IMG/VR virus record: IMGVR_UViG_3300006921_000093
Span: 1 to 29,009 of that record
Source: a virus
Strand: one strand, 5' to 3'
DNA length: 29,009 bases
This document shows positions 189 to 22,950 of the stretch, piece after piece. The notes below the pieces were generated by a model. It was not told the DNA's origin. It did no database searches and saw only the letters and a list, made by a program, of their open reading frames with translations. Position 1 is the first letter of the stretch. The number at the start of each line of letters is the position of its first letter. The position numbers were made by a program, and so were the translations under genes.

Positions 189-3100
189 ATGGCTGACAAC
201 TCTTCCAGAAGATTCAAGTTTATTTCACCCGGCGTGTTCGTCAATGAGATTGATAACTCTCAATTTCCTGAACTGCCCGGCGAAGTCGGACCCCTATTAA
301 TTGGTAGATCAAGAAAAGGACCAGCTAACAAGCCTGTCAAGATGACATCCTTTTCAGATTTTGTACAAACATTCGGCTACCCAGTTCCTGGCAACAAGGG
401 TGGCGATGTATGGCGTGACGGCAACCTTACTGCCCCTACCTATGCTGCATTCGCTGCACAGGCTTGGCTAAGGAACGGTTCGCCCATTACTTTCCTTCTG
501 GTACTTGGTGATGAATCAAGTAATGCTACCGCTGCCGGTAAAGCCGGCTGGAAGGTTCCCGACTTTGTTGCTACGGGTGGCGATGTGCCAGCTACTAATA
601 ATGCTGGTGGTGTTTATGCCCTATGTGTGTGGCCTTCAAGTTCGATAGACCGACCAACACTCAAAGGCGCTGTCGCCGCTCAATTTTATATGGAGTCTGG
701 TCGAGTCCTACTCTCTGGTAACTTAGCTGGTGATGTTCGGGATGGTTTAGGTCTTCCTATCGCTTCCTGCTCGGGCTCCAGTGTATATGAAATTGCTACC
801 ATGGATGATTTTACTCTGCTCTTCACGGGTAGTGCTACTAATGAAAAAGTCACAGTCAGTTTAAATCCTGACAGTGAGAACTTCATTCGCAAGGCATTAA
901 ACACTAATCCCACAGTTACCAACTCTGCCATTACTGATGCCTCTACACAGGCTTTCTATCAGAATGGGATTACTTGGCTAGGAGAGTCCTTCGAACGATC
1001 TCTCACTGCTGAGGGAACTACTTCAATTGGTGTCCTTGGGTCCTCAACGACCAAGTATTTTGCGGCAATGCTTCCAATGGCTGTGAACAGTGGCAGTTAT
1101 GCTGTACAGCAAAGCAACTTTGAGGGTGGCGCTACTAAGGCAACCACAGGTTGGTTTATCGCACAGGATCTTACGAATGATTTTGCAAGTTATGCTCCAC
1201 GGAATATGCAGAAGCTCTTCCGCCTTGAAGCTCTTACCGCTGGTGAGTCAGTTCAAAGGGAAGTAAAAGTATCTATCTCAAACATAACTGCCCCCGCAGG
1301 CGATTATCAAGAATATGGCACCTTCTCTGTGCTAGTTCGCTCTATCTCTGATACAGATAGCCGACCCGAAATCATTGAACGCTTCGACGAGCTTAACTTG
1401 AATCCTGCTTCTGCAAATTATATTGCTAAGCGCATCGGTGACAAGTACGAAGTATACTCTCAGACTGAAAAGCGTATGCAAGAGTACGGTGAGTTTGACA
1501 ATAACTCTAACTACATCCGTGTAGTCATGAACGAAGATGTTGCTGCTGGCTCCGGCGAAAGCCGCTGGCTACCATTCGGCGTCTTCGGTCCACTTAAGTA
1601 TCGTGATGTTGGCATCCTCAGCGGCTCTGGCGGCTGGTCTTTCAACTATGCTACTCCAGTGTCCTCATCCCGTGGTGCTGTCCAAACGATGTTGGCTGGT
1701 AATGGCGAAGCTGATTTCGGTAACATCGGTCACGAGGCTGCTAACATTGATGTGTTGCAGGTTCCAGCCTTTGCTGGTGCGACTACAATTACTGTGACTG
1801 CTAGTGGCATAACCACTGGCGGTGTCAACGGTAATGATTTCGTACTTACAGACACTGAACTCACTGGTCTGACATTTAGATTTGACGACACCGTGGCAAC
1901 TCACGCCGCTCCTGTGATTGGTATTAATGGTCTAGGGGTCAATGACGCTTCCGGGTACGCTACTCAAATTGCTCTTACAATTAATGATTGGGCGGGCAAA
2001 GTAGCAGCCACGGTAACAACCCCTGGCGGCTTGAATGTCGATGCTGTTATTACACTTGTTCAAGATGTTGGTGGCAGTGCCGGGAACACAGTGCTCGACA
2101 TGTCTGGCGTCACCAACATGGCTGCCGCTGACTTTACTGGCGGTGGAACCTTCTCTGCCAAGGTTGCTTTCCCATCCGTACCTCTAAGACAGTTGAGCAC
2201 ATGGGGAACACCTCGTTCCATGAGAAACACTTTCTGGGGAGCATGGTCCGGAAGAACAGGTGCCGACACCTTCTTCAATCCACAGCTTGCTGATTGTCTC
2301 CGACTTCGAACCATGGATCTATCTGCGTACAATAATGATCCTGCTTCTACGGCGCATGATGTTGAAGGTCAAACCACAACATATGCTGCTTCTGCTGCTG
2401 CTACTGACCCCACAGCTATTGCCTGGTGCTTTTCACTAGATAATATCTCTGGCTCGGCTGATGCAGGCTACACCTATGCTGCTGGTCAGCGTGCTGCTGG
2501 AACCAGCCTTAGTGCTCCACTTGTTGCAAGCTATAAAACAACGCTTGCAGCCGGCGCTGATCGCTTTACTTCAATGCTCTTCGGTGGATCCGACGGTTAT
2601 GATGTAACGGAGCGTGAACCATTTAGAAATAGCAAAATGACGGCAACAGATGAAAATGATTCATACGAGTTGTTCTCCCTAAGAAAAGCCATCAACATTG
2701 CTTCAGACCCAGACTACATTCAAATGAATGCTGTGTCTATCCCAGGGATCTGGCGTCCTGCTGTGACTAACTACTTGTTAGATACAGTCGAGGAGCGTGC
2801 CGACGCCCTAGCTATCGTCGATATCCAGTACGGCTATGTGCCAAGTACTGAAGACACGGGCTCCGCTGAGACTCGTAATGCTAGTTCTACTGCTACGCAA
2901 GCTGCTGATACTTTGGCTGCTCGTAGCATCAACAACAGCTACGGTGCTACATACTACCCATGGGTACGCATCCTAGACACCAACACTAACCAGACCTTGT
3001 GGGCACCACCAAGTGTGGCTGCGATGGGCGTTCTTTCTTCAACTGACCGTCTAAACGCCCCATGGTTCGCTCCTGCTGGATTCACCCGAGGTGGATTGAG

Positions 3101-3581
3101 CGAAGGTGCTGCTGGCGTGCCAGTGTTGGATGTTTCTCGCCGTCTAACTTCAGACGAGCGTGACACACTATATGAAAACAATATTAACCCAATTGCTAAG
3201 TTCCCTGCTGAAGGTATCGTGGTCTTTGGTCAGAAGACACTACAGCAGACATCCTCTGCTCTAGATAGAATCAATGTTCGTCGCTTGATGATCTACTTGA
3301 AGAGAGAAATCTCCTTCATCGCTTCTAGGTTGCTCTTCGGACCCAATACTCAGGATACTTGGGATCGCTTCCTCGGTCAGGCTAACCCCTTACTAGAGAG
3401 CGTTCGTGCTGAGTTTGGTATCGAGGATTTCCGCCTCGTGCTAGACAACACAACAACTACGCCAGACTTGATTGACCGAAACATCATGTATGCTAAGTTG
3501 CTTGTGAAGCCAACCCGAGCAGTCGAGTATTTTGCAATTGATTTTGTGGTTACTAATAGCGGGGCATCCTTCGAAGATTAA
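189..3581 (+). CDS. 18: Tail sheath protein, gp18-like, with large insertions
   Basis: This forms the contractile sheath around the tail tube. The N-terminus (FISPGVFVNEID, then a GPLLIGRSRKGPANKPV stretch) and the C-terminal domain (VVFGQKTLQ, INVRRLMIYLKREI, FVVTNSG) match the polymerising core of T4 gp18-type sheaths. At 1130 residues it is far longer than T4 gp18 (about 660), so the extra length lies in surface insertions. One, about residues 521-657, is rich in Gly, Thr, Val and Asn and resembles a compact beta domain (NDFVLTD, INDWAG, VITLVQ, GSAGNT) that recurs in environmental phage structural proteins. The ATG at 189 follows a strong GAGGAG site. The tube gene follows after 42 nt, the usual T4 order. 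Confidence 0.95.
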   Translation: MADNSSRRFKFISPGVFVNEIDNSQFPELPGEVGPLLIGRSRKGPANKPVKMTSFSDFVQTFGYPVPGNKGGDVWRDGNLTAPTYAAFAAQAWLRNGSPITFLLVLGDESSNATAAGKAGWKVPDFVATGGDVPATNNAGGVYALCVWPSSSIDRPTLKGAVAAQFYMESGRVLLSGNLAGDVRDGLGLPIASCSGSSVYEIATMDDFTLLFTGSATNEKVTVSLNPDSENFIRKALNTNPTVTNSAITDASTQAFYQNGITWLGESFERSLTAEGTTSIGVLGSSTTKYFAAMLPMAVNSGSYAVQQSNFEGGATKATTGWFIAQDLTNDFASYAPRNMQKLFRLEALTAGESVQREVKVSISNITAPAGDYQEYGTFSVLVRSISDTDSRPEIIERFDELNLNPASANYIAKRIGDKYEVYSQTEKRMQEYGEFDNNSNYIRVVMNEDVAAGSGESRWLPFGVFGPLKYRDVGILSGSGGWSFNYATPVSSSRGAVQTMLAGNGEADFGNIGHEAANIDVLQVPAFAGATTITVTASGITTGGVNGNDFVLTDTELTGLTFRFDDTVATHAAPVIGINGLGVNDASGYATQIALTINDWAGKVAATVTTPGGLNVDAVITLVQDVGGSAGNTVLDMSGVTNMAAADFTGGGTFSAKVAFPSVPLRQLSTWGTPRSMRNTFWGAWSGRTGADTFFNPQLADCLRLRTMDLSAYNNDPASTAHDVEGQTTTYAASAAATDPTAIAWCFSLDNISGSADAGYTYAAGQRAAGTSLSAPLVASYKTTLAAGADRFTSMLFGGSDGYDVTEREPFRNSKMTATDENDSYELFSLRKAINIASDPDYIQMNAVSIPGIWRPAVTNYLLDTVEERADALAIVDIQYGYVPSTEDTGSAETRNASSTATQAADTLAARSINNSYGATYYPWVRILDTNTNQTLWAPPSVAAMGVLSSTDRLNAPWFAPAGFTRGGLSEGAAGVPVLDVSRRLTSDERDTLYENNINPIAKFPAEGIVVFGQKTLQQTSSALDRINVRRLMIYLKREISFIASRLLFGPNTQDTWDRFLGQANPLLESVRAEFGIEDFRLVLDNTTTTPDLIDRNIMYAKLLVKPTRAVEYFAIDFVVTNSGASFED

Positions 3582-11710: not shown

Positions 11711-13223
11711 ACAGGAAAGAGTAGACCCTAACGAGTCACCAGAGCTATATTCTTACGCTAGTAATACTTCGAACTCTCGGACTGTGTTCAACCAGCGCCA
11801 AGCATACAATAACGAGATCTTCCCAGATTCTTTAATATGGAACTTTTACGAAACCTGGAACGAGCAGCGTTTTTATGGAACCATCAATACAAGGGGAAAT
11901 TCTGTTATTCCCGACACTGATCAGTTAAAAAGCTTATATTATAGCGGCGAGCAAATACAAATGGCTATGAATTTTGTAGCAGATGCTTGGAGAGATTTCG
12001 CCATGCAGGTCCAAAAGTTGGTAGATAATAATATTATTTACAGCAACAGCCCGTGGGCAACAATGGAGGTCCGCAAAGCCTGGGTTCCAACCTCCCTGGG
12101 ATATAATAACTATATGGAGGACTCGGTATACCCAGTATTTCAGAACATTTTTATGGAATCTTTTGGTCGAGACCGCACTATCATGGGCATGGAATCCTTC
12201 TTGGATAATTTTGATGAATATATGGATACGATCTTGGTTCAGGCGGGACCCTTAACCCGATCAGGGTATATTGAGGGTTCTTATGTTTCTCCGTTGGTCT
12301 CCGGGCTAATGATAGAGGTAGCTAGCGCCGCTTATGATGATGATTTTGCCAAATCCTACCAGTTTTTGGACGGGAACTTTGAACTTATTGCTGAACTGGC
12401 TTCTCACTACGGCTTTGCTATTGATAAAAACACCCCTTGGCGTCTCATAGCGGACCTACGAAACCCAGCAATGCAAGAATATATGTACGGTGTGCCGATC
12501 GAAGAGTTTGACACTTCGGTCCCCCCGCAGCCTTGCGACCCGAAGCTATTAGATCCGGAAAACCCCCCGATGGCTTTCGGCTTTTCCCAACTACCGGGTC
12601 TTGAGGATGTTTATCGCCACATCGCTGTGCATTTTGATGATGACGGAATGGCTCAGCCCGGCTATGCGGAATACCAAAAAGTCAAAGATGCAAAAACACA
12701 GAAAGAAGTGTTTGACATATTGTTTACGACCGCATATAATGAGACTTGGCAAACTGACATCGACCTGGTACAGGAGCACTTAATTAAGTTTTATAACTCT
12801 TATATAGAGCAGGTGCCGACTACGACAACAAAGCCTGTCTACAATAAGGTGCTCCAGTGCGTCGAGCCGGCTGTTACCATTACCAGATCGCCAATTTCTG
12901 AGGAGGATTTTAATATAACTTATGGAGATAGGTGGAAGTTAAAAACTTTTTATATTGCTCGGGTAGCTGAGAGAGGTTTGCAAAAACCACTGCGACTCAG
13001 AAGCAGAGAACTTCAACAATCCATGAACATTTATAATTTATCTTCCCAGAACCGCTACCTCCGGGCACTACGAACGACGCAAGAAGAGTTTATTGGACCT
13101 TCGGACACAGACCCTTTAACATTAGACACTGTGGGTGATATACTGGAAGCCCAGAACAGAAGTGAACCCAATGATTTTTCAAACACTGGACGACAAGAGC
13201 GAATGCGTCGGAATTTATACTGA
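11703..13223 (+). CDS. Unidentified protein, probably virion structural
   Basis: The ATG at 11703 is preferred over the upstream TTG at 11676 because AGGAG lies 8-12 nt before it and the overlap with the upstream stop (TAA 11708-11710) is then only 8 nt. The 506-residue product is rich in Tyr, Trp, Asn and Asp, has no signal peptide or membrane helix, and opens with an Asn/Ser-rich arm. It contains no catalytic motif that I recognise. A PP/TTTT-rich linker near residue 385 (EQVPTTTTKP) separates a C-terminal basic region (LQKPLRLRSRELQQSM). Being the last gene of the tail run, it is likely a baseplate or fibre-attachment component. I do not recognise the family. Confidence 0.7.
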   Translation: MAKQERVDPNESPELYSYASNTSNSRTVFNQRQAYNNEIFPDSLIWNFYETWNEQRFYGTINTRGNSVIPDTDQLKSLYYSGEQIQMAMNFVADAWRDFAMQVQKLVDNNIIYSNSPWATMEVRKAWVPTSLGYNNYMEDSVYPVFQNIFMESFGRDRTIMGMESFLDNFDEYMDTILVQAGPLTRSGYIEGSYVSPLVSGLMIEVASAAYDDDFAKSYQFLDGNFELIAELASHYGFAIDKNTPWRLIADLRNPAMQEYMYGVPIEEFDTSVPPQPCDPKLLDPENPPMAFGFSQLPGLEDVYRHIAVHFDDDGMAQPGYAEYQKVKDAKTQKEVFDILFTTAYNETWQTDIDLVQEHLIKFYNSYIEQVPTTTTKPVYNKVLQCVEPAVTITRSPISEEDFNITYGDRWKLKTFYIARVAERGLQKPLRLRSRELQQSMNIYNLSSQNRYLRALRTTQEEFIGPSDTDPLTLDTVGDILEAQNRSEPNDFSNTGRQERMRRNLY

Positions 13224-14391
13224 CCACCGCCTTCTTTTTGACCTTGAAGAGTTCCCAGACACCTTGACAACGACTTGGAAATATGCTCCATATTTGCGAG
13301 GATTAGATATTGAGTATGTTTCTTTGTACCTAGAGGGCGGCAGCATCGCTGACAATGTCCCTGAGTATCTCCAGGAGGATTGGGAAGATGTGGCTAAGAA
13401 AATAGCAGCATTCAAAAGGTCGTTGGTCCTTTCGCAGGTTAATACTCTCGAAAACTGTTTTTTTGATCTAGTTCCTCAGAGGTTCTTGTTGGATTTTTGC
13501 GAGGTAAAAAATAAAATAACAGAACATATTCTTAAGTCAACGCCAAAACCAAAAAGGTATGAATTCTATAGACATGTTTCTATGATGCTAGAAGATATGG
13601 CACAGCACCCAGTACGGTTAAACCAACGAACCATACGGTCCTATGAAAAGGACCCCAAACTTAGAAACCAAGCGGCAAAATTACTAAGCTCCGAACCTAG
13701 AGTGGCGTATAAGCAGTTTGGAACCAAAACTGGAAGATTGACCACACAGAAGAACTCTTTTCCAATCCTTACTTTGAACAGGGCTTTCCGAGGAGCAGTA
13801 GAGCCTCAGAATGATTATTATATTGAACTAGACTTTAATGGAGCAGAGGTAAGAACATTGCTTGGTCTCCTCGAAAAAGAGCAACCAGTCGAGGATGTTC
13901 ATAATTTCCACCTTAGAGAAATATTTAGCACCATCACTAGCCGTGACGACGCCAAAGTCGCCTTCTTTGCGTGGCTTTATGGCTCCCGTCAGGCTGTCAG
14001 CAAGGAAGATGTGGCTAAATTAGCGTCTTATTACGAGAAGGACTCCTTGTTGGCGAAATATTGGGATGGCAACACAGTTACAACGCCCTTTGGGAAGAGA
14101 ATTCCCGACGCAACTCGTCATCACGCCTTGAACTACCTTGTGCAGTCTACCGCAGCAGAATTGACTCTAAACCAAGCTCTAAAGCTTGAATATCTCCTTC
14201 GGGAACGGTCCCAAGGCTCTCACATCGCCTTTCTGATTCATGATGCGGTGGTAATAGACATGAAAAATGAAGACTCAGAACTAATTAACTCACTGATTGC
14301 TTTGATGAGTTCGACGAAGTTGGGCAAATTTATGGTAAACATAAAAAGAGGTAAAACTCTAGGTTCCATGAGGGATATGCAAGTTGGATAA
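13171..14391 (+). CDS. Short family A DNA polymerase (PolA-like), no exonuclease domain
   Basis: This has the palm/fingers motifs of family A polymerases: KTGRLTT (about 186-192), motif A LDFNGAEVR with Asp221, motif B KVAFFAWLYGS (Lys262, Tyr-Gly 270-271), the NYLVQSTAAEL helix (321-331) and motif C IHDAVV with Asp358. Both metal-binding Asp residues are present. Motif C reads HDA where E. coli Pol I has HDE. At 406 residues there is no 3'-5' or 5'-3' exonuclease domain, and the N-terminal 110 residues match nothing I know. ATG 13171 is chosen because it shortens the overlap with the upstream gene to 53 nt; GTG 13162 and the 13135 start remain possible. A second polymerase, DnaE, lies at 26394, so this enzyme probably has a special task such as gap filling. 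Confidence 0.82.
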   Translation: MIFQTLDDKSECVGIYTDHRLLFDLEEFPDTLTTTWKYAPYLRGLDIEYVSLYLEGGSIADNVPEYLQEDWEDVAKKIAAFKRSLVLSQVNTLENCFFDLVPQRFLLDFCEVKNKITEHILKSTPKPKRYEFYRHVSMMLEDMAQHPVRLNQRTIRSYEKDPKLRNQAAKLLSSEPRVAYKQFGTKTGRLTTQKNSFPILTLNRAFRGAVEPQNDYYIELDFNGAEVRTLLGLLEKEQPVEDVHNFHLREIFSTITSRDDAKVAFFAWLYGSRQAVSKEDVAKLASYYEKDSLLAKYWDGNTVTTPFGKRIPDATRHHALNYLVQSTAAELTLNQALKLEYLLRERSQGSHIAFLIHDAVVIDMKNEDSELINSLIALMSSTKLGKFMVNIKRGKTLGSMRDMQVG

Positions 14392-15241
14392 AGTTATTGG
14401 CTTAGGCAAGCTGGGTTGTGCAATCGCAGAAGAGTTATCGAAGCACCCTGAGTATAGAATCTACAAAATTGAACCAGGCTTTACGGAGCGAGGTAGCCTA
14501 GAGTTGGGCGCATACACCACTCATGAGGAATGTGAAAGTGTGGTGGATCAGGACGAGGTATCGATATACCTCAGATCTATCAAGGATAAGCACGAGGTTC
14601 TGCTAATCGTGGAAGGCGGCGATCCAGCCTCTGGAGCCGCTCTGAGAATCCTGGAAACAGTAAGGGATTCAAAAATAAATGTTCTATACATTTGTCCCGA
14701 GAGGTCCATGATCTCCGAGTCCCGCAAGAGCAGCGATGAAATGTGTTTTCATGTATTGCAAGAGTATGCCCGCAGCGGCGTGTTTGAGAGGATTTTTCTA
14801 GTTGATTCTATTACCCTGGACACTTTAGTCGGTGATGTTTCTATCCAGAAATACGAACAGAGTGTATCTCATTTTGTTTCTTATGTTGTCGCTATGATTA
14901 ATTATTTTCATCACACTGAGCCGGTGTTATCAACCAAGATTGAGCCGAATCAAATTGCTCGCATTGCAACTTTCGGAATATCGTCCCTAACAGAGGGGGA
15001 GGAAGAGACCTCCTTGATGTTCCCTCTGGAAGAGATTGGCGATATTCACTTCTTTTATGGAGTCCCCGAGCAAGATCTAGAAGAGGACCCCACCCTAATT
15101 AAGCGCATCAAGGCCCATGTGAAGGGGTATAGGCACCAAAAGGTATCGTCAAGCTTTTCGGTATACTCGACCACTTTCGACAGTTTGATGGTATTGTGTT
15201 TGGCATACTCCTCCAAGATTCAGTCTATGATTGAAAGCTGA
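14384..15241 (+). CDS. Divergent tubulin/FtsZ-like GTPase-fold protein
   Basis: The order of elements parallels FtsZ/TubZ: an N-terminal strand-loop-helix VIGLGKLGCAIAEEL (4-18) like the FtsZ VIGVGGGGxNAV loop, strand YRIYKIE (24-30), strand EVLLIVEGG (71-79), a GGDPASGAAL loop (78-87) in the place of the GGGTGSG tubulin signature, the helix ALRILETV, strand INVLYICPE (98-106) in the place of the 'VVTRPF' strand, then a long helical run. The signature loop keeps G-G-x-x-x-S-G but has lost two glycines, so GTP binding is uncertain. Cytoskeletal function is inference. The TTG start at 14384 overlaps the polymerase stop and follows GAGGG by 10 nt. It runs as a unit with the next two genes. Confidence 0.55.
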   Translation: MDKVIGLGKLGCAIAEELSKHPEYRIYKIEPGFTERGSLELGAYTTHEECESVVDQDEVSIYLRSIKDKHEVLLIVEGGDPASGAALRILETVRDSKINVLYICPERSMISESRKSSDEMCFHVLQEYARSGVFERIFLVDSITLDTLVGDVSIQKYEQSVSHFVSYVVAMINYFHHTEPVLSTKIEPNQIARIATFGISSLTEGEEETSLMFPLEEIGDIHFFYGVPEQDLEEDPTLIKRIKAHVKGYRHQKVSSSFSVYSTTFDSLMVLCLAYSSKIQSMIES

Positions 15242-15292
15242 AAAACGATTTTCTGCTAACTATTTAAAGTGGACGATAGAGGGAACTTTTTA

Positions 15293-15736
15293 ATGCAACA
15301 TAAGAAAGGTATATTACTAGCCTCATTCATCACGACTGATGATGAGGAAGTTATTATGAATGAGGTTAATCACATTGTTGATACTATTGACATCACAAAT
15401 AATTATATTTTCTTACTCTCGGATGAAGAAAATCCCCAAAATAAGATATTGACCTATAATGCTCTGATAGAAAAGGGCAAGACTTTCAACTCTAGGCTAT
15501 ACACCATTCGGGTCCACCGCAAAAAGCAAACAAATACCTTGTATACGATTAATGCTCTAAACCAGGCGGTCGCTGCGGAACATGATGGCGCTACCGGCAA
15601 ACACCTTAAGCTTGATTGGGAGAAGTACAAAGACTCCATTTTACTGACGGCTGGTAAAGAATTGAAAGTTCACCCGGTCAGGGTGCTTAAAATATTCAAA
15701 ATAGAGGAAGAGCCTCAACCAGAGGAAGGGGAATAA
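15293..15736 (+). CDS. Small conserved hypothetical phage protein
   Basis: The ATG at 15293 is preferred to GTG 15269 because GAGGGAA (15279-15285) is well placed before it. The 147-residue product begins with KKGILLASFI (strand) and contains the well-formed block TIRVHRKKQTNTLYTINALN (about 78-97), followed by KLDWEKYKDSILLT and KVHPVRVLKIFKIEE. Basic HRKK and the TNTLYTINALN helix look like a conserved ligand or RNA-binding surface, but this is a guess. I recall similar hypothetical proteins in T4-like phages of aquatic bacteria next to genes like the upstream one, which suggests a functional pair. No known catalytic motif is visible. Confidence 0.75.
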   Translation: MQHKKGILLASFITTDDEEVIMNEVNHIVDTIDITNNYIFLLSDEENPQNKILTYNALIEKGKTFNSRLYTIRVHRKKQTNTLYTINALNQAVAAEHDGATGKHLKLDWEKYKDSILLTAGKELKVHPVRVLKIFKIEEEPQPEEGE

Positions 15737-15975: not shown

Positions 15976-16761
15976 ATGGGTATTGACTTAGCTAAAATGA
16001 AAGCCAAACAGGCTGCCTTGACTAATCGAAGTGGAGGTTCCGACGACAATCACTATTGGAAGCCAGACGAGGGAACGCATCAGATCCGTCTTGTGTGCCC
16101 TGAAGGCGGCGATCCATTCTTTGAGGCGTATTACCACTACGGCATGGGTGCCGAAGGTAAGACTACCGTCCTCAGCCCACGCACTAACGGTGATGCTGAC
16201 CCCATCGCAGAGTGGGGAACCAAGCTGTGGAACGAAGGCACTGATGCTTCGAAGGAAGCTGCCAAGCGTTTCTGGCCTAAGATGCGAGTATTCGCCCCCA
16301 TCGTTGTTCGTGGTGAAGAGGGCAAAGGCGTTCGCTGGTGGGGCTTTTCCCGCACCACCTATCAGGCACTACTTGATGTAGTTCTTGACCCTGAGTATGG
16401 CGACATCACCGACACCGAAACGGGTACGGACATTCGCATTGACTATGGAAAGAAGCAAGGTCAGTCCTTCCCAACGACTGATGTGCGCCCAATGCGCCGA
16501 ACCAGCAAACTTGCCGCTACGGACGAGGAAGTCAACACCCTGTTAGGAAATATTGCCGCCGCAGCAGATGTGTTTGATGTCACCTCTTATGAGGAGTGTG
16601 AGCGCATTTTGAGCGCCACTCTCGGGGAGACTACCGTGGATGACAGCGACGGCACCACTCGCTATAACAATGACAATGCCAACCAAAAGGCAGATAATTC
16701 CGACTCAACCCTTAAGGGTGTTTCTGATATCGATAGTGCCTTTAATGAGTTGATGGCATAG
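15976..16761 (+). CDS. 32: Single-stranded DNA-binding protein, gp32-like
   Basis: This coats ssDNA during replication and recombination and recruits UvsX and helicase. The N-terminal basic helix (about 4-20) is the cooperativity arm. The core shows HYWKPDEGTHQIRLV (26-40), FFEAYYHYGMG, RFWPKMRVFAPIVVRG (98-113), VRWWGF, LDPEYGDITDTETGTDI and FPTTDVRPMRRTS. The C-terminus is acidic and flexible (DDSDGTT ... SDIDSAFNELMA). T4 gp32 binds zinc through a His and three Cys; here the corresponding loop (about 66-80, LSPRTNGDADPIAEW) has no Cys, so the zinc site is lost. The gene has its own promoter upstream and a hairpin downstream, fitting high expression. Confidence 0.9.
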   Translation: MGIDLAKMKAKQAALTNRSGGSDDNHYWKPDEGTHQIRLVCPEGGDPFFEAYYHYGMGAEGKTTVLSPRTNGDADPIAEWGTKLWNEGTDASKEAAKRFWPKMRVFAPIVVRGEEGKGVRWWGFSRTTYQALLDVVLDPEYGDITDTETGTDIRIDYGKKQGQSFPTTDVRPMRRTSKLAATDEEVNTLLGNIAAAADVFDVTSYEECERILSATLGETTVDDSDGTTRYNNDNANQKADNSDSTLKGVSDIDSAFNELMA

Positions 16762-16819: not shown

Positions 16820-17890
16820 ATGAGCAGACAACGATCAAGTTCCTTAGTTGCCGATCTGCGCAACGAACTAAACAAGGCAGCCAAAGAAAATATTGCTTAT
16901 GACCTGCATGGGGAAAACCCAACGGATGTCAAAACATGGATTTCCACTGGCTCAACCTTGTTGAATTATATTATTTCCAACCGTCGTGACGGAGGGATTC
17001 CGGTAGGCAAGCTCACCACAATTGCTGGTGAATCCGCCAGCGGTAAGAGCCTTGTCGTGACTCAGATCCTAGCTAACTGCCAGAAGATGGGAGGGCTCGC
17101 TGTATATATTGATACAGAAAACGCCGCCTCTCCAGATTTTATGGAACAGTTGGGACTTGACACAAAGAACAATTTTATCTATGTTCAGCCGGGTACTATT
17201 GAGGAAGTGTTTGAAAACATTGAACGCCTCATTGGACTCATCCGAGAAAAGGCACCAGATAAACTTGTCTGTATTGTATGGGACAGTGTTGCCGGCACCC
17301 CAGTCAAAGCCGAGGTGGAAGGGGACTATGACCCCAACAGCCGTATCGGTCTGACAGCCAAGGCATTAGCCAAAGGTATGCGGAAAGTAACGGAGACACT
17401 CGGCAAAGAACAGATTGCTATGGTTTTCACTAACCAGTTGAAGACCAACATTGGCGTGATGTTCGGAGACAACCGAGTTGAGCCCGGCGGCAAGGCTCTG
17501 CCCTACCACGCTTCCAGCCGTATCTGGCTGACTCAGCACAAGGGAAAAGCTAATGGTCAGATTCTAAACGAGAAGAAGCAGGTCATTGGTTTCCATACCA
17601 GTGCGAAGACTATGAAGTCTCGTTTTGGCCCATCGCCAAGGAGTTGTCAGTTTGATGTATTATTTGATCTAGCTAATGATAGGGTAGGTGTAGACGATGA
17701 AGGTTCCTGGCTTAGCGCCATTGTTGGCACGCCTGGTTGCATTCGTAGTGGTGCTTGGTATACAATCAATGTTGACGGCGAAGATAAAAAGTTCCAATCC
17801 AAGGAATTCCCCGCCCTCCTAGAAGATAAGAAGTTTCGTAAAAGAGTTCTTGACATTCTAGAGGATGAGTATAAAATAGGGAAGAAGTAG
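16820..17890 (+). CDS. uvsX: UvsX/RecA-like recombinase
   Basis: This makes a filament on ssDNA and does ATP-dependent strand exchange, driving recombination-dependent replication and repair. Walker A is GESASGKS (70-77), the catalytic Glu is in DTE (98-100), and Walker B is VCIVWD (150-155). Loop sequences include NQLKTNIGVMFGDNRVEPGG (205-224), and the C-terminal half has FHTSAKTMKSRFGPSPRSCQF, typical of UvsX rather than bacterial RecA. The 356 residues are close to T4 UvsX (about 390). It follows gp32, its partner, in the same unit. No uvsY is seen in the window. Confidence 0.93.
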   Translation: MSRQRSSSLVADLRNELNKAAKENIAYDLHGENPTDVKTWISTGSTLLNYIISNRRDGGIPVGKLTTIAGESASGKSLVVTQILANCQKMGGLAVYIDTENAASPDFMEQLGLDTKNNFIYVQPGTIEEVFENIERLIGLIREKAPDKLVCIVWDSVAGTPVKAEVEGDYDPNSRIGLTAKALAKGMRKVTETLGKEQIAMVFTNQLKTNIGVMFGDNRVEPGGKALPYHASSRIWLTQHKGKANGQILNEKKQVIGFHTSAKTMKSRFGPSPRSCQFDVLFDLANDRVGVDDEGSWLSAIVGTPGCIRSGAWYTINVDGEDKKFQSKEFPALLEDKKFRKRVLDILEDEYKIGKK

Positions 17891-17904: not shown

Positions 17905-18336
17905 ATGGAATCCGACCCGACAAATGAGATCCGCAACAAGTTTCTCAAGCTGGCTCTTCGCCGCATCGACGGAGAAGACTACAGCCAAGACATTCAGCAT
18001 CGCCACGCTGCTGTTGTTGTAAAAGCAGGGCGTGTCCTTTCGGTGGGTAGAAACCGAGATAAGACCCATCCTGATGCTGTGGGAATTGATGAGGACGGCG
18101 AAGTCTTCACTCGGACTATCCATGCTGAAATGGACGCAATTTCTAAAGTAAAGAATAAACAACACTTAAAAGGTGCGACCATTTATGTGGCTCGCAAAGG
18201 CAGAAATCAAAAAGCGGGGATGTCTTGTCCCTGTAGGATGTGCCAGGGTGTCATCAGCAAGTACGGTCTCAAGAAGGCAGTATTTACGACCGACTATGGA
18301 ACTGGTATGCTAGAGTTTGACGGAGAAGAGAAATGA
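17905..18336 (+). CDS. Deoxycytidylate-type (CMP/dCMP) deaminase
   Basis: A zinc-dependent cytidine/deoxycytidylate deaminase: the HAE motif (73-75) gives the zinc His and catalytic Glu, and SCPCRMC (107-113) gives the PCxxC zinc cysteines 110 and 113. The 143 residues are short compared with T4 dCMP deaminase (about 190). The dCMP activity is inferred from phage context: making dUMP for thymidylate synthesis beside the reductase. A base-editing or nucleoside deaminase role cannot be excluded. It begins 14 nt after the uvsX stop, and its TGA overlaps the next ATG. Confidence 0.8.
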   Translation: MESDPTNEIRNKFLKLALRRIDGEDYSQDIQHRHAAVVVKAGRVLSVGRNRDKTHPDAVGIDEDGEVFTRTIHAEMDAISKVKNKQHLKGATIYVARKGRNQKAGMSCPCRMCQGVISKYGLKKAVFTTDYGTGMLEFDGEEK

Positions 18337-19286
18337 AGCGATTACTTATCATTGACGGACAGAACATGTTTATTAGAAACTATGTCATGTCTCCACAATT
18401 AGATTCTAACGGAAAGCCTATAGGGGGTTTGACGGGGTTTTTGAGGTCTCTGCAAAAAGAGATCCGCCGTACAAACCCCGATAGGGTAGTTGTGGCATGG
18501 GAGGGTCCTGGCGGATCACAGGCTCGCAGAGAAAAGAACAAAAACTATAAAGTTGGACGCAAGGCCCCCAAGCTGAATCGAGAATATGAATTCGCTAACC
18601 CCGACGAAGAGCGAGAAAACAAGTATGAGCAGATTATCCGTCTGACCGAGTACCTAGAGAAACTCCCCGTTTTGCAGCTTTCGGTGGAAAATGTTGAGGC
18701 AGATGATGTAATTGCGTGGCTGTGTCATTGTGGTGAGTATGATGACTGGCAAAAGGTTATCCTCTCTTCGGACAAAGACTTTATTCAACTTTGTAGCGAC
18801 AAGACCGTTTTGATCCGCCCTGGTAAAAATGAGGAGATTTTAAACCGTGAGCGCATTCTAGAACAATATAGTATTCACCCCCGAAATTTTGCTTGGGCAC
18901 GGGCTATCACAGGAGACAAATCGGACAATCTGGACGGCGTGAAGGGCTTGGGCTTAGCAACTGTGGCTAAGAGGTTTTCCTTCCTTTCAGAAAATAAAGA
19001 CTATGGGATCAAAGATATTTTAACACATGCAAAAAATAATAATTCTAAAATCAAGGCTTATCAGAATGTTCTGGATAGCGAAGATATTATTGCTTCAAAT
19101 TACGAAATCATGCAGCTATATACCTCTACCATTTCTAACCAAGGAGTTCAAAAACTCAAGTACGCAATACAGAATGATGGAGTCACTCTGGATCGCACCC
19201 AAATTAGAACGATGCTCCTCAAGGACGGAATTGGTACTCTTAACATTGACGAACTGATGCTTATGTTGCGCTCACACAAAAAATAG
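18333..19286 (+). CDS. rnh: 5'-3' exonuclease / RNase H, T4 Rnh-like FEN nuclease
   Basis: A flap/5' nuclease that removes RNA primers and short DNA flaps from lagging-strand fragments. The acidic metal cluster is readable: Asp8 (LLIIDGQNMF), Glu57 (VVVAWEG), EADD (122-125), SSDKDF (145-150) and GDKSDNLDGVKGLG (194-207), where the last matches the helix-hairpin-helix entry. Arg65/Arg66 and Lys68-Lys73 resemble the arch region. The 317 residues compare with about 305 in T4 RNase H. It starts at ATGA over the deaminase stop. Paired with the DnaE polymerase, it would supply the RNA-removing step that Pol I does in cells. Confidence 0.9.
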   Translation: MKRLLIIDGQNMFIRNYVMSPQLDSNGKPIGGLTGFLRSLQKEIRRTNPDRVVVAWEGPGGSQARREKNKNYKVGRKAPKLNREYEFANPDEERENKYEQIIRLTEYLEKLPVLQLSVENVEADDVIAWLCHCGEYDDWQKVILSSDKDFIQLCSDKTVLIRPGKNEEILNRERILEQYSIHPRNFAWARAITGDKSDNLDGVKGLGLATVAKRFSFLSENKDYGIKDILTHAKNNNSKIKAYQNVLDSEDIIASNYEIMQLYTSTISNQGVQKLKYAIQNDGVTLDRTQIRTMLLKDGIGTLNIDELMLMLRSHKK

Positions 19287-19297
19287 TGTGCGCCCTC

Positions 19298-19325
19298 TTC
19301 ACATTTTCATCTTTTGAGTTATAGT
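19298..19325 (+). promoter_or_regulatory. Candidate promoter before the helicase gene
   Basis: TTCACA (19298-19303) is followed after 16 nt by TATAGT (19320-19325) in a 62-nt gap. The helicase ATG lies 23 nt below the -10, with a weak ribosome site. This may boost expression of helicase and reductase inside the longer operon. Confidence 0.5.
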
Positions 19326-19348
19326 AGAAGTAGATAAAAGGTTGGCAG

Positions 19349-20767
19349 ATGACAGAACGAGAATACGAAACTTTTAGTAAATTTGGAAAATCTTTCCAAG
19401 AGAAGCTTGTAAAGCTGATTCTCTTTGATCGTCATTTTGCTAACCAAATGGAAGAGGTTCTCGATGTATCATATTTAGAACTTAAATACCTTCAGGTGTT
19501 TGTGGACCTCCTTTTTCGTCATAAAGAGTCCTACCCTCACCCCACCTATGAGGCGATGGTATCTGTTATCCGAACTCAGACTGAGGATTACTCCGACAGT
19601 GTCATAAAGCAAGTAATTGACTTCCTCGCCCGCATTAAAAGTAATGCTATTGGGGACGAGGACGCAGATTATGTCAAGGAGAAGTCTCTTGATTTCTGCA
19701 AAAAGCAGAAACTAAAAGAGGCGATTCTTAAATCTGTAAATCTACTCCAGACGCAAAGCTTCGAACAGATTCAAAAAGTTATCAATGATGCTATGAACCT
19801 AGGCGCAGACAACGATCACGGTCATGATTACCACAAGGATGTCCTTGATCGCTTTGAATTGCAAATGCGCAACCCTGTCTCTACCCACTGGGATGAGATT
19901 GATATGATCACCAAGGGCGGTCTGGGCAAACGAGAGCTTGGTGTAGTGGTCGCCCCAACCGGCGCAGGTAAGTCTATGGCACTTGCTCATCTTGGTGCGA
20001 TGGCTGTAGTTAAGGGCAAGACCGTTGTTCACTACACATTAGAGTTAGCAGACACAGTTGTAGGTCAGAGGTATGATTCGTGTATCACTGGGATTGAACT
20101 AAAGCACTTGATGACCATGAAGGACTCTATCCTAGAGGTGATCGAGCACATCCCCGGACAACTGATCATTAAAGAGTATCCAACTAAGTCAGCCTCCACT
20201 CGTACAATCTCAATGCACCTAGAGAAACTAAAACAAAAAGGCATCACTCCCGATATGATTATCGTAGACTACGCTGACCTTTTGAAGCCAACGGCATCTG
20301 GGTTCAAGACCCAGGAGCTACGCCACAGCCTTGGCAATATCTATGAAGAACTCCGAGCCATCGGACAAGTCTGGGATATTCCAGTGTGGACAGCATCCCA
20401 AACCAATCGCAGCGGATTGAACGCTGAGGTCATCACGATGGAATCCATCAGTGAAGCCTTTAGCAAGTGCTTTGTGGCTGATTTTATCTGTTCCATCTCC
20501 CGGACGGTTGATGACAAGACGGAGAACAAAGGGCGCATGTTCGTCGCTAAAAACCGCAACGGCATTGATGGTATCGTCTACCCTATGGAAATTAATACTG
20601 CCAAGGTTCACCTGCGAGTATTGCCTCCGGATGAGGATTCCTCAATCGACGCTGTGGTTATGAAAACAAAACAAGAGCAAGATGAGCACTTGCGGCAAAA
20701 GTATAAAAAGTTCAAACAAGAGAAGAAAAAACAACAACAAATTAAACAAGGAGCACCCGAGCTATGA
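19349..20767 (+). CDS. 41: Replicative DNA helicase, DnaB/gp41-like
   Basis: A RecA-fold hexameric helicase that unwinds the fork 5' to 3' on the lagging strand. Walker A is PTGAGKSM (203-210) and Walker B is MIIVDYAD (303-310). The sensor helix TASQTNRSG (348-356) is typical of DnaB/gp41. The N-terminal 160 residues form a helical domain as in T4 gp41. The 472 residues match gp41 (475). The C-terminal 35 residues are rich in Lys, Gln and Glu (KKFKQEKKKQQQIKQ) and could bind partners. No primase is in the window. It overlaps the reductase by ATGA. Confidence 0.93.
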   Translation: MTEREYETFSKFGKSFQEKLVKLILFDRHFANQMEEVLDVSYLELKYLQVFVDLLFRHKESYPHPTYEAMVSVIRTQTEDYSDSVIKQVIDFLARIKSNAIGDEDADYVKEKSLDFCKKQKLKEAILKSVNLLQTQSFEQIQKVINDAMNLGADNDHGHDYHKDVLDRFELQMRNPVSTHWDEIDMITKGGLGKRELGVVVAPTGAGKSMALAHLGAMAVVKGKTVVHYTLELADTVVGQRYDSCITGIELKHLMTMKDSILEVIEHIPGQLIIKEYPTKSASTRTISMHLEKLKQKGITPDMIIVDYADLLKPTASGFKTQELRHSLGNIYEELRAIGQVWDIPVWTASQTNRSGLNAEVITMESISEAFSKCFVADFICSISRTVDDKTENKGRMFVAKNRNGIDGIVYPMEINTAKVHLRVLPPDEDSSIDAVVMKTKQEQDEHLRQKYKKFKQEKKKQQQIKQGAPEL

Positions 20768-22635
20768 ACGACCACGATCTATCCAAAACTATCTTATCCG
20801 ACATCACTGTCTATATGAAGTATGCTCGGTATTTGCCGGAAAAGAACCGCAGAGAAACTTGGGAAGAGCTTGTCGGGCGCAATATGGAAATGCATATGCG
20901 CAAATATCCCGATCTTAAACAAGAGATTAAAGACTCTTATCAGCTTGTATACGACAAGAAGGTGCTCCCTTCCATGAGGTCTATGCAATTTGCCGGCAAG
21001 CCTATCGAGATTTCGCCCAACCGAGTTTTTAACTGCGCCTATGCTCCTGTAGATGACTGGCGAGTGTTTGGCGAAATTATGTTCTTGCTCCTCGGGGGCA
21101 CAGGCGTCGGCTACTCCGTCCAGCAGCACCATGTTGAGCAGCTACCTGAAATTCATAGACCAAACACAGAAAGAACCCGGAGGTATTTAATAAATGATAG
21201 TATTGAAGGATGGGCGGATGCAGTCAAGCATCTTGTCCGCAGCTACTTCTTTGGTGGCTCTAAGTTACGATTTGATTATAGTGATATTCGTGCAAAAGGT
21301 GCTCGCCTTGTAACCTCGGGAGGCAAAGCACCGGGTCCGCAGCCTCTACGGGAGTGCTTAGTAAAGGTTGAGGGAATCTTGAGCGAAAAAGCTGATGGTG
21401 ATAAGCTGTCTCCTATCGAGGTTCACGATATTGTTTGCCATATCGCTGACGCAGTATTGGCAGGCGGCATCCGGCGTGCAGCCTTGATCTGCCTGTTCTC
21501 GGCAAGTGATAACGAGATGATCTCTTGTAAGGCTGGCAACTGGTGGGAACAGAATCCACAGCGAGGTCGTGCTAACAATTCTGCCATGCTTTTGCGGCAT
21601 AGGATCACAAAAGAATTCTTCCTAGACTTGTGGAAGCGAGTGGAAGCATCTAACGCAGGCGAGCCCGGCATCTACTTGTCCAATGATAAGGACTGGGGAA
21701 CCAACCCGTGCTGTGAAATTGGACTACGACCCTTCCAGTTCTGTAACCTGACCGAAGTAAATGTCAGCAACATCACAGGACAAAACGACTTGGAAGAGCG
21801 AGTACGGGCTGCTGCCTTCATAGGAACACTACAGGCTGGATATACCGACTTCCACTATCTTCGTCCAGTCTGGCAACGGACCACGGAGAAGGATGCTCTT
21901 ATTGGAGTGTCTATGACTGGCATCGCTTCAGGGCGTGTTTTGTCAGATGACATAGATTTGACGGCGGCGGCTCATGTAGTCAAAGAGGAAAATGCCAGGG
22001 TAGCCCAGCTTATAGGAATCAACAAGGCAGCCCGCACAACCTGCGTAAAACCAGCAGGAACCACAAGTTTGACTCTGGGAACTTCCAGTGGTATCCATGC
22101 CTGGCACAACGATTATTATATCCGCCGAATCAGAGTTGGCAAAAATGAGCCAATTTATTGGCACCTCGCAATTCACCACCCAGAACTGGTGGAGGACGAG
22201 TACTTCCGTCCACACGATACCGCAGTCATCTCCGTGCCTCAACGAGCGCCCGAAGGGGCTATCTTGCGTGACGAGTCAGCCTTCCAGCTTTTTCGCCGGG
22301 TAAAGAAAATCACAAGAGAATGGGTTAGTCCAGGTAAACGCTCAGGTCAGAACGGGCACAATGTGTCGGCTACCATTTCTCTACACGAGAATGAGTGGAC
22401 CGACGCTGGGGAGTGGATGTGGGATAACCGAGAGCATTATAATGGCTTGGCTGTTCTCCCTTATGATGGCGGGTCTTATCAACAAGCCCCCTTCGAGGAT
22501 TGCTCTAAGGAGACCTTCCATGCCATGATGGCTACGCTGCAAGGTATCGACCTTACTAAGATAGTAGAAGAAGATGACAACACTGATTTGAAGGGTGAAC
22601 TGGCTTGCGCCGGCGGAGCTTGCGAGATTAGCTAA
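20764..22635 (+). CDS. nrdJ: Adenosylcobalamin-dependent ribonucleoside-triphosphate reductase (class II)
   Basis: This reduces NTPs to dNTPs using a B12-derived radical, with no oxygen requirement and no small subunit. The monomeric Lactobacillus-type pattern is clear: first redox Cys91 (VFNCAYAPVDDW), Asn314-Pro-Cys316-Cys-Glu318 with thiyl Cys316, partner Cys327 (FCNLTEVN), and the C-terminal redox pair Cys615 and Cys620 (CAGGAC). Length is 623 residues, against about 740 for the bacterial enzyme, so some regulatory insertion is shorter. The class differs from T4's NrdAB. Its activity depends on cobalamin from the host. It starts at ATGA over the helicase stop, and a new promoter begins just after it. 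Confidence 0.93.
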   Translation: MNDHDLSKTILSDITVYMKYARYLPEKNRRETWEELVGRNMEMHMRKYPDLKQEIKDSYQLVYDKKVLPSMRSMQFAGKPIEISPNRVFNCAYAPVDDWRVFGEIMFLLLGGTGVGYSVQQHHVEQLPEIHRPNTERTRRYLINDSIEGWADAVKHLVRSYFFGGSKLRFDYSDIRAKGARLVTSGGKAPGPQPLRECLVKVEGILSEKADGDKLSPIEVHDIVCHIADAVLAGGIRRAALICLFSASDNEMISCKAGNWWEQNPQRGRANNSAMLLRHRITKEFFLDLWKRVEASNAGEPGIYLSNDKDWGTNPCCEIGLRPFQFCNLTEVNVSNITGQNDLEERVRAAAFIGTLQAGYTDFHYLRPVWQRTTEKDALIGVSMTGIASGRVLSDDIDLTAAAHVVKEENARVAQLIGINKAARTTCVKPAGTTSLTLGTSSGIHAWHNDYYIRRIRVGKNEPIYWHLAIHHPELVEDEYFRPHDTAVISVPQRAPEGAILRDESAFQLFRRVKKITREWVSPGKRSGQNGHNVSATISLHENEWTDAGEWMWDNREHYNGLAVLPYDGGSYQQAPFEDCSKETFHAMMATLQGIDLTKIVEEDDNTDLKGELACAGGACEIS

Positions 22636-22641
22636 GGGCTC

Positions 22642-22670
22642 TTAAAGATGTGTGAGGTGTGTAGTATTAT
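22642..22670 (+). promoter_or_regulatory. Promoter for the co-chaperonin and accessory genes
   Basis: TTAAAG (22642-22647) is followed after 17 nt by TATTAT (22665-22670), and AGGAAAGGGG precedes the ATG at 22693. GAGGTGTG (22654-22661) between the boxes is shared with the gp32 promoter at 15925, so both may answer to one regulator. Confidence 0.6.
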
Positions 22671-22692
22671 ATCTCTAGGAAAGGGGACTAAG

Positions 22693-22950
22693 ATGAAACC
22701 ATTAAACCGCAGACTACTTATTGAAGTATTAAACCAAGAGGAGGAGAGCAGCGGAGCTTTCTTCGTGCCTCAAGAAAAGAAGGCACAGAGCGAGTTCACT
22801 ATAGGAATGGTTGTCGATTCAGCCGACGACTGCACATCAGACCTAAAGGGCAAGAAGGTTGTCTTCACAACCTTTGGGATTGAAACCGTCAAGGTGGGTG
22901 CAGAAGAATTTAGCTTCATCGGCGAGAGTCATGTAGTTTGCTGCGAATAA
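22693..22950 (+). CDS. GroES-like co-chaperonin, gp31 analogue
   Basis: This caps host GroEL to help fold the phage capsid protein. The start at 22693 is supported by AGGAAAGGGG 4-13 nt upstream and by the typical start KPLNRRLLIEVL (KPLxDRVLVxxL in GroES). The mobile loop region ESSGAFFVPQEKKAQSEFTIGMVVDS (about 18-43) and the strands KKVVFTTFGIETVKVGAEEFSFIGESHVV fit GroES fold. At 85 residues it is nearer to GroES (97) than to gp31 (111). In the loop the IVL-like triplet reads FFV. A longer frame from 22648 starts at the promoter and is rejected. Cys-Cys-Glu ends the chain. Confidence 0.85.
   Translation: MKPLNRRLLIEVLNQEEESSGAFFVPQEKKAQSEFTIGMVVDSADDCTSDLKGKKVVFTTFGIETVKVGAEEFSFIGESHVVCCE

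Follow-up and report, generated by a model that had tools for sequence, protein, structure and literature searches.

FtsZ is the GTPase of bacterial cell division, TubZ is the partition tubulin of plasmids and phages, PhuZ is the spindle tubulin of the nucleus-forming jumbo phages, and the CetZ proteins (3zid, 4b45) are members of the tubulin superfamily concerned with cell shape in archaea. The tubulins described in phages so far are mainly PhuZ, from jumbo phages, and TubZ, from plasmid-like phages (PMC7950403). The window analyzed here, a stretch of 29,009 nt (positions 1 to 29,009 of IMG/VR record IMGVR_UViG_3300006921_000093), carries a gene whose product, judged by its predicted structure, almost certainly belongs to the tubulin/FtsZ superfamily by fold. 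It would represent a third family of phage tubulins, apparently much more numerous, encoded in mostly non-jumbo T4-like phages; the appropriate name for it is tubulin-superfamily (tubulin-fold) protein, in a new family distinct from FtsZ, TubZ, and PhuZ. The features of the gene and its surroundings are collected in Table 1.

Table 1. Position of the tubulin-fold gene, its motifs, and the neighboring replication genes in the window
Feature	Position	Strand	Description and basis
Short family-A DNA polymerase (PolA)	13135..14391	+	418 aa as called; PF00476 5e-13, phrog_17; no exonuclease domain seen
Tubulin/FtsZ-fold protein gene	14384..15241	+	285 aa, TTG start; models, Foldseek/VIA matches, homologues, dN/dS
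T1 loop GLGKLGC, residues 6-12	14399..14419	+	nucleotide-end glycine loop; placed by HHalign on FtsZ GVGGxGGN
PEYR, residues 22-25, H1-S2 turn	14447..14458	+	Y24 invariant
T4 loop GGDPASG, residues 78-84, replacing GGGTGSG	14615..14635	+	model, conservation, HHalign
QEYARSG, residues 126-132, end of helix H5	14759..14779	+	best-conserved loop in the family; invariant residues Q126, R130, S131, G132
T7 position, residues 177-193, after helix H7	14912..14962	+	model, conservation
Conserved small ORF (orf155)	15269..15736	+	155 aa; in the window's clade and Mel-JY01
gp32-like single-stranded DNA-binding protein (SSB)	15976..16761	+	phrog_1192 5e-17
UvsX-like recombinase	16820..17890	+	phrog_97 7e-75
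Rest of replication block	18333..22635	+	
Exonuclease	18333-19286	+	
DnaB-like helicase	19349-20767	+	
Ribonucleotide reductase	20764-22635	+	

The first eight bases of the tubulin-fold gene are shared with the end of the polymerase gene upstream, and its homologues start with ATG, GTG, or TTG at the same codon as the TTG of the window. Since there are 111 distinct homologous proteins, which also form the conservation set used below, and since dN/dS between close pairs of homologues is 0.02–0.05, indicating strong purifying selection, this is a real gene and a chance reading frame is ruled out.

The structure of the monomer was predicted with AlphaFold2, without templates, from an alignment of 43 sequences (pLDDT 90.9, pTM 0.90). 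A second model, built from a largely different alignment of 37 sequences, was obtained for a relative that is 29% identical to the window protein (L194; pLDDT 93.1, pTM 0.90). Both models show the full-length two-domain tubulin/FtsZ fold, including the C-terminal domain, and their matches to FtsZ, TubZ, CetZ, and tubulin extend along the entire chain, with Z of 21–25 and 254–281 residues aligned. FtsZ and TubZ make up all of the top 50 Foldseek matches of the window model in the PDB (best E 2.7e-12). A plain Rossmann fold, named in the initial annotation as an outcome that would speak against a relative of FtsZ, is found nowhere among the PDB matches listed, and a plain Rossmann or NAD-binding protein is ruled out as the main reading because the match spans the whole chain together with the C-terminal domain. 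The elements that had been assigned from the sequence, namely the N-terminal VIGLGKLGCAIAEEL (residues 4–18), the strand at 25–31, GGDPASG, and INVLYICPE (98–106), are all present as described; the model of the window protein has strands 3–7, 25–31, 71–77, and 97–104, and GGDPASG forms a loop between the third of these and helix 81–92, a position that it keeps among the relatives.

The best whole-chain match of both models is CetZ, with Z of 25.3 in VIA-align for the window model (3zid, 264 residues aligned, rmsd 3.1) and of 24.6 for the L194 model (254 residues). The window model also matches CetZ2 (Z 24.8), TubZ (23.9), FtsZ (23.7), and tubulin (about 22.5); the same families are matched by the L194 model, with Z of 22.8 for TubZ. 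Identity to CetZ is nevertheless 13–14%, and the tubulin-fold protein differs from it in lacking the T4 signature, in being encoded by phages within a replication block, and in being about 50 residues shorter. FtsZ shares with the family the fold, the order of elements, the T1 glycine loop, and a weak profile similarity at the family level, and it is among the top Foldseek matches, whereas the window protein has neither GGGTGSG nor the T7 motif NxDxxD nor an FtsZ-type C-terminal peptide, at an identity of about 10–18%. TubZ is similar in fold as well as in its origin on mobile elements, but again the signature is missing from the tubulin-fold protein, and its neighbors are a polymerase and an SSB, none of them being recognized as TubR-like.

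In the viral structure library BFVD, the best match of the window model is a protein of an uncultured Caudovirales phage labeled 'FtsZ Cell division GTPase' (A0A6J5RW92, TMq 0.78), which, however, comprises 452 aa, is 12% identical, and was not recovered as a sequence homologue. PhuZ, likewise a phage-encoded tubulin fold, appears lower down (E 3.5e-6, TMq 0.53); its match is far weaker than those of FtsZ and CetZ, and the new family differs further in its degenerate GTPase motifs and in its T4-like carriers, with contigs mostly below 200 kb. By sequence, the protein belongs to none of the known phage tubulin families, with no significant match in PHROG and none in INPHARED.

Profile comparison points the same way as the structures. 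The broad family of 111 sequences aligns with 17 FtsZ sequences in HHalign with a score of 36.4 (P 4e-4), T1 falling on T1 and T4 on T4, above all 13 control families from the same loci (scores 11.8–24.3, P 0.035 or worse), although the window's clade alone gives P 0.035 against FtsZ, no better than the controls. Homology to the tubulin superfamily is thus close to certain because of the structure, with modest independent support from sequence.

Eight residues are invariant over the 111 sequences (G6, G8, Y24, L87, Q126, R130, S131, and G132), and the third T1 glycine, G11, is present in 107 of them. In the T4 loop, most members of the window's clade have GG[DE]PxSG, and the wider family shows G[AS]GxISG or TSCGxxSG. 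The initial annotation correctly noted that the GTPase signature GGGTGSG is absent from this loop in the window protein, but its description of two glycines replaced by Asp and Pro does not hold: three residues differ in GGDPASG, where Asp and Ala each replace a glycine and Pro replaces the threonine. At the T7 position, no conserved acid that would correspond to the catalytic motif NxDxxD is found in the 111 sequences. T2 and T6 belong to the least conserved stretches of the family, and the T6 Asn that FtsZ has is shared by the wider clade but has been lost from the window's clade. Among the loops, conservation is highest in QEYARSG, not in the catalytic ones; going by the topology of the fold, QEYARSG, the turn between H1 and S2, and the beginning of S7 would lie on the face opposite the nucleotide pocket. 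As the T1 and T4 glycines are kept, the protein may bind a nucleotide, although, to judge from its motifs, it apparently lacks the normal GTP-hydrolyzing parts.

The kept fold and the T1 and T4 glycines also make possible, if unlikely, a PhuZ- or TubZ-like cytoskeletal filament, in which a head-to-tail polymer with a non-canonical nucleotide site would position replicating DNA or capsids. The full-length fold with its C-terminal domain, the T6 Asn of the wider clade, and a C-terminal tail LDDQxI[SG] in 20 of the 111 members, disordered in the L194 model, are what such a polymer might have; the missing T4 signature in the window protein, the lack of a conserved T7 acid, the poor conservation of T2 and T6, and the loss of the T6 Asn in the window's clade argue against it. 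The tail, which in full reads LDDQ[DEK]I[SG] (L141, L194, and 18 more members), resembles the partner-binding tails of FtsZ. The invariant GxG with its nearly invariant third Gly, along with weak, sub-threshold TrkA_N matches, would also suit an enzyme or sensor that binds nucleotides or dinucleotides with a reused GxGxxG loop and feeds the replication block, but this is improbable in view of a whole-chain match to the tubulin superfamily that includes the C-terminal domain and of an invariant residue set without a catalytic pattern.

Used as the sole query, the window protein recovers two relatives from IMG/VR, an alignment query recovers 47 and then 53 loci with 37–97% identity, and a scan with a profile broadened by deeper members picked up through UvsX yields at least 596 stretches confirmed as tubulin-fold relatives. 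The family is invisible to the sequence libraries searched, in line with the earlier suspicion that standard searches leave the protein hypothetical. There was no significant match in PHROG (43 and 8 family members scanned), no homology to a known family in Pfam or among PDB sequences, and no match of the window protein above the cut-off for PF00091, the Tubulin/FtsZ GTPase model of Pfam, to which a relative (L192) came at E 0.17. In INPHARED, tblastn with four family members matched no phage, and the family was not found in distant UvsX records, a search run without a positive control. The literature consulted on FtsZ/tubulin evolution, pelagimyophages, and B12-dependent virioplankton, with little coverage of subscription sources, mentions no such phage gene, and an earlier report elsewhere is possible. 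A search of 84,980 bacterial and archaeal species genomes with the broadened profile gave a single locus, which lies in a MAG of candidate division WOR-3. On this chromosome (CP070664; L202, G001 contig C1, about 2,145,971–2,254,533), the tubulin-fold gene occurs with PolA, SSB, and UvsX, a T4-like terminase lies about 105 kb away from it, and no GC shift is seen. We take the locus to be an integrated or co-assembled phage; it is the sole host hint found.

The placement of the gene next to replication genes, already remarked on in the window, holds at the testable loci of the family, with the fixed order PolA - tubulin-fold gene - (orf155) - SSB - UvsX; ahead of PolA come the tail genes and then u515. 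The short family-A polymerase is the preceding recognized gene in 156/156 testable loci and orf155 or SSB is the next gene in 141/141, counts in which several loci share one contig and of which the downstream one is biased by loci found via UvsX. Of the 80 closest loci kept from a polymerase scan that made no use of the tubulin-fold gene, all 78 with room downstream encode it. The polymerase itself retains its catalytic residues, with motif A and the HD of motif C present in 100/100 aligned homologues.

Tail and baseplate genes upstream would be compatible with a virion or assembly protein, but PolA always stands between them and the tubulin-fold gene, SSB and UvsX come after it, and no phage structural family is matched, so that such a role is most improbable. 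Phages are known to block FtsZ, and a degenerate FtsZ-like protein might act as a decoy that poisons the FtsZ of the host, blocking division during infection; this too is very improbable, given an identity of about 10–18% to FtsZ, TubZ, and CetZ and a gene kept in place across very diverse phages, always with the polymerase, unlike a host-specific inhibitor. FtsZ poisoning, an enzymatic function, and a virion role are all less likely than a partnership with the polymerase. As the gene is always directly behind the phage DNA polymerase, its product probably has a role in phage DNA replication, although this linkage is no proof of contact, since the whole tail-to-replication block is syntenic and a neighbor may be linked for regulation only.

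The nearest cultured phage, Microcystis phage Mel-JY01, has UvsX (38%), the reductase (65%), and the gene order in common with the carriers, and has no tubulin-fold gene. It encodes a family-B polymerase (1.5e-36) and a gp44-type clamp loader (6e-77), while its counterpart of the short PolA, followed by orf155, is a weak and degenerate match in which the HD of motif C has become YD (His to Tyr). In five large carriers (G002–G006, 165–190 kb), the short PolA (about 400 aa) is apparently the sole family A or B DNA polymerase; neither a family-B polymerase nor a gp44-type clamp loader was found in them, the clamp-loader model giving only generic AAA+ hits, and other carriers look the same with regard to the clamp loader. 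By this contrast, drawn between a single cultured phage and contigs of unstated completeness, the tubulin-fold protein would accompany the short PolA where the latter is the working polymerase. The gp45 sliding clamp (PF09116, phrog_223) had no match in the carriers, but this test is insensitive because it gives no match in Mel-JY01 either.

We therefore favor, tentatively, a GTPase-degenerate tubulin-superfamily protein that would be the direct partner or scaffold of the short family-A polymerase of this phage group, a reading that could well be correct. It would bind the polymerase, or a complex of polymerase, SSB, and DNA, through the invariant QxxxRSG, Y24, and RxxTxG. It would then serve processivity or architecture as a subunit, or form a short oligomer, insensitive to nucleotide, by which replisomes are held together; a role as a GTP-driven spindle is not what we envisage. 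A stronger version, in which a minimal replisome built on the family-A polymerase has the protein as an obligate subunit without GTPase activity, standing in for the T4-type PolB, clamp, and clamp loader, is rather doubtful; if true, a cytoskeletal fold would have turned into a replication factor in a very large phage group. With its degenerate GTPase parts and its unbroken tie to a DNA polymerase, the family makes it testable whether a tubulin fold can serve replication without GTP-driven dynamics, and it offers a lead to the function of an unannotated core gene in a large group of uncultured phages.

That the carrier is a T4-like phage, as first proposed, is supported by a sheath protein, a gp19-like tube protein, a T4 baseplate protein, UvsX, and the gp32-like SSB. 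Contigs of the group reach about 204 kb and are mostly below 200 kb. The tail sheath protein of the window (189-3581) is unusually long, with 1130 aa, and the sheath profile matches both of its ends, which points to a large insertion. Just downstream of the replication block, a 100-aa ORF (22648-22950) matches a phage co-chaperonin GroES (phrog_3188, 3.9e-7).
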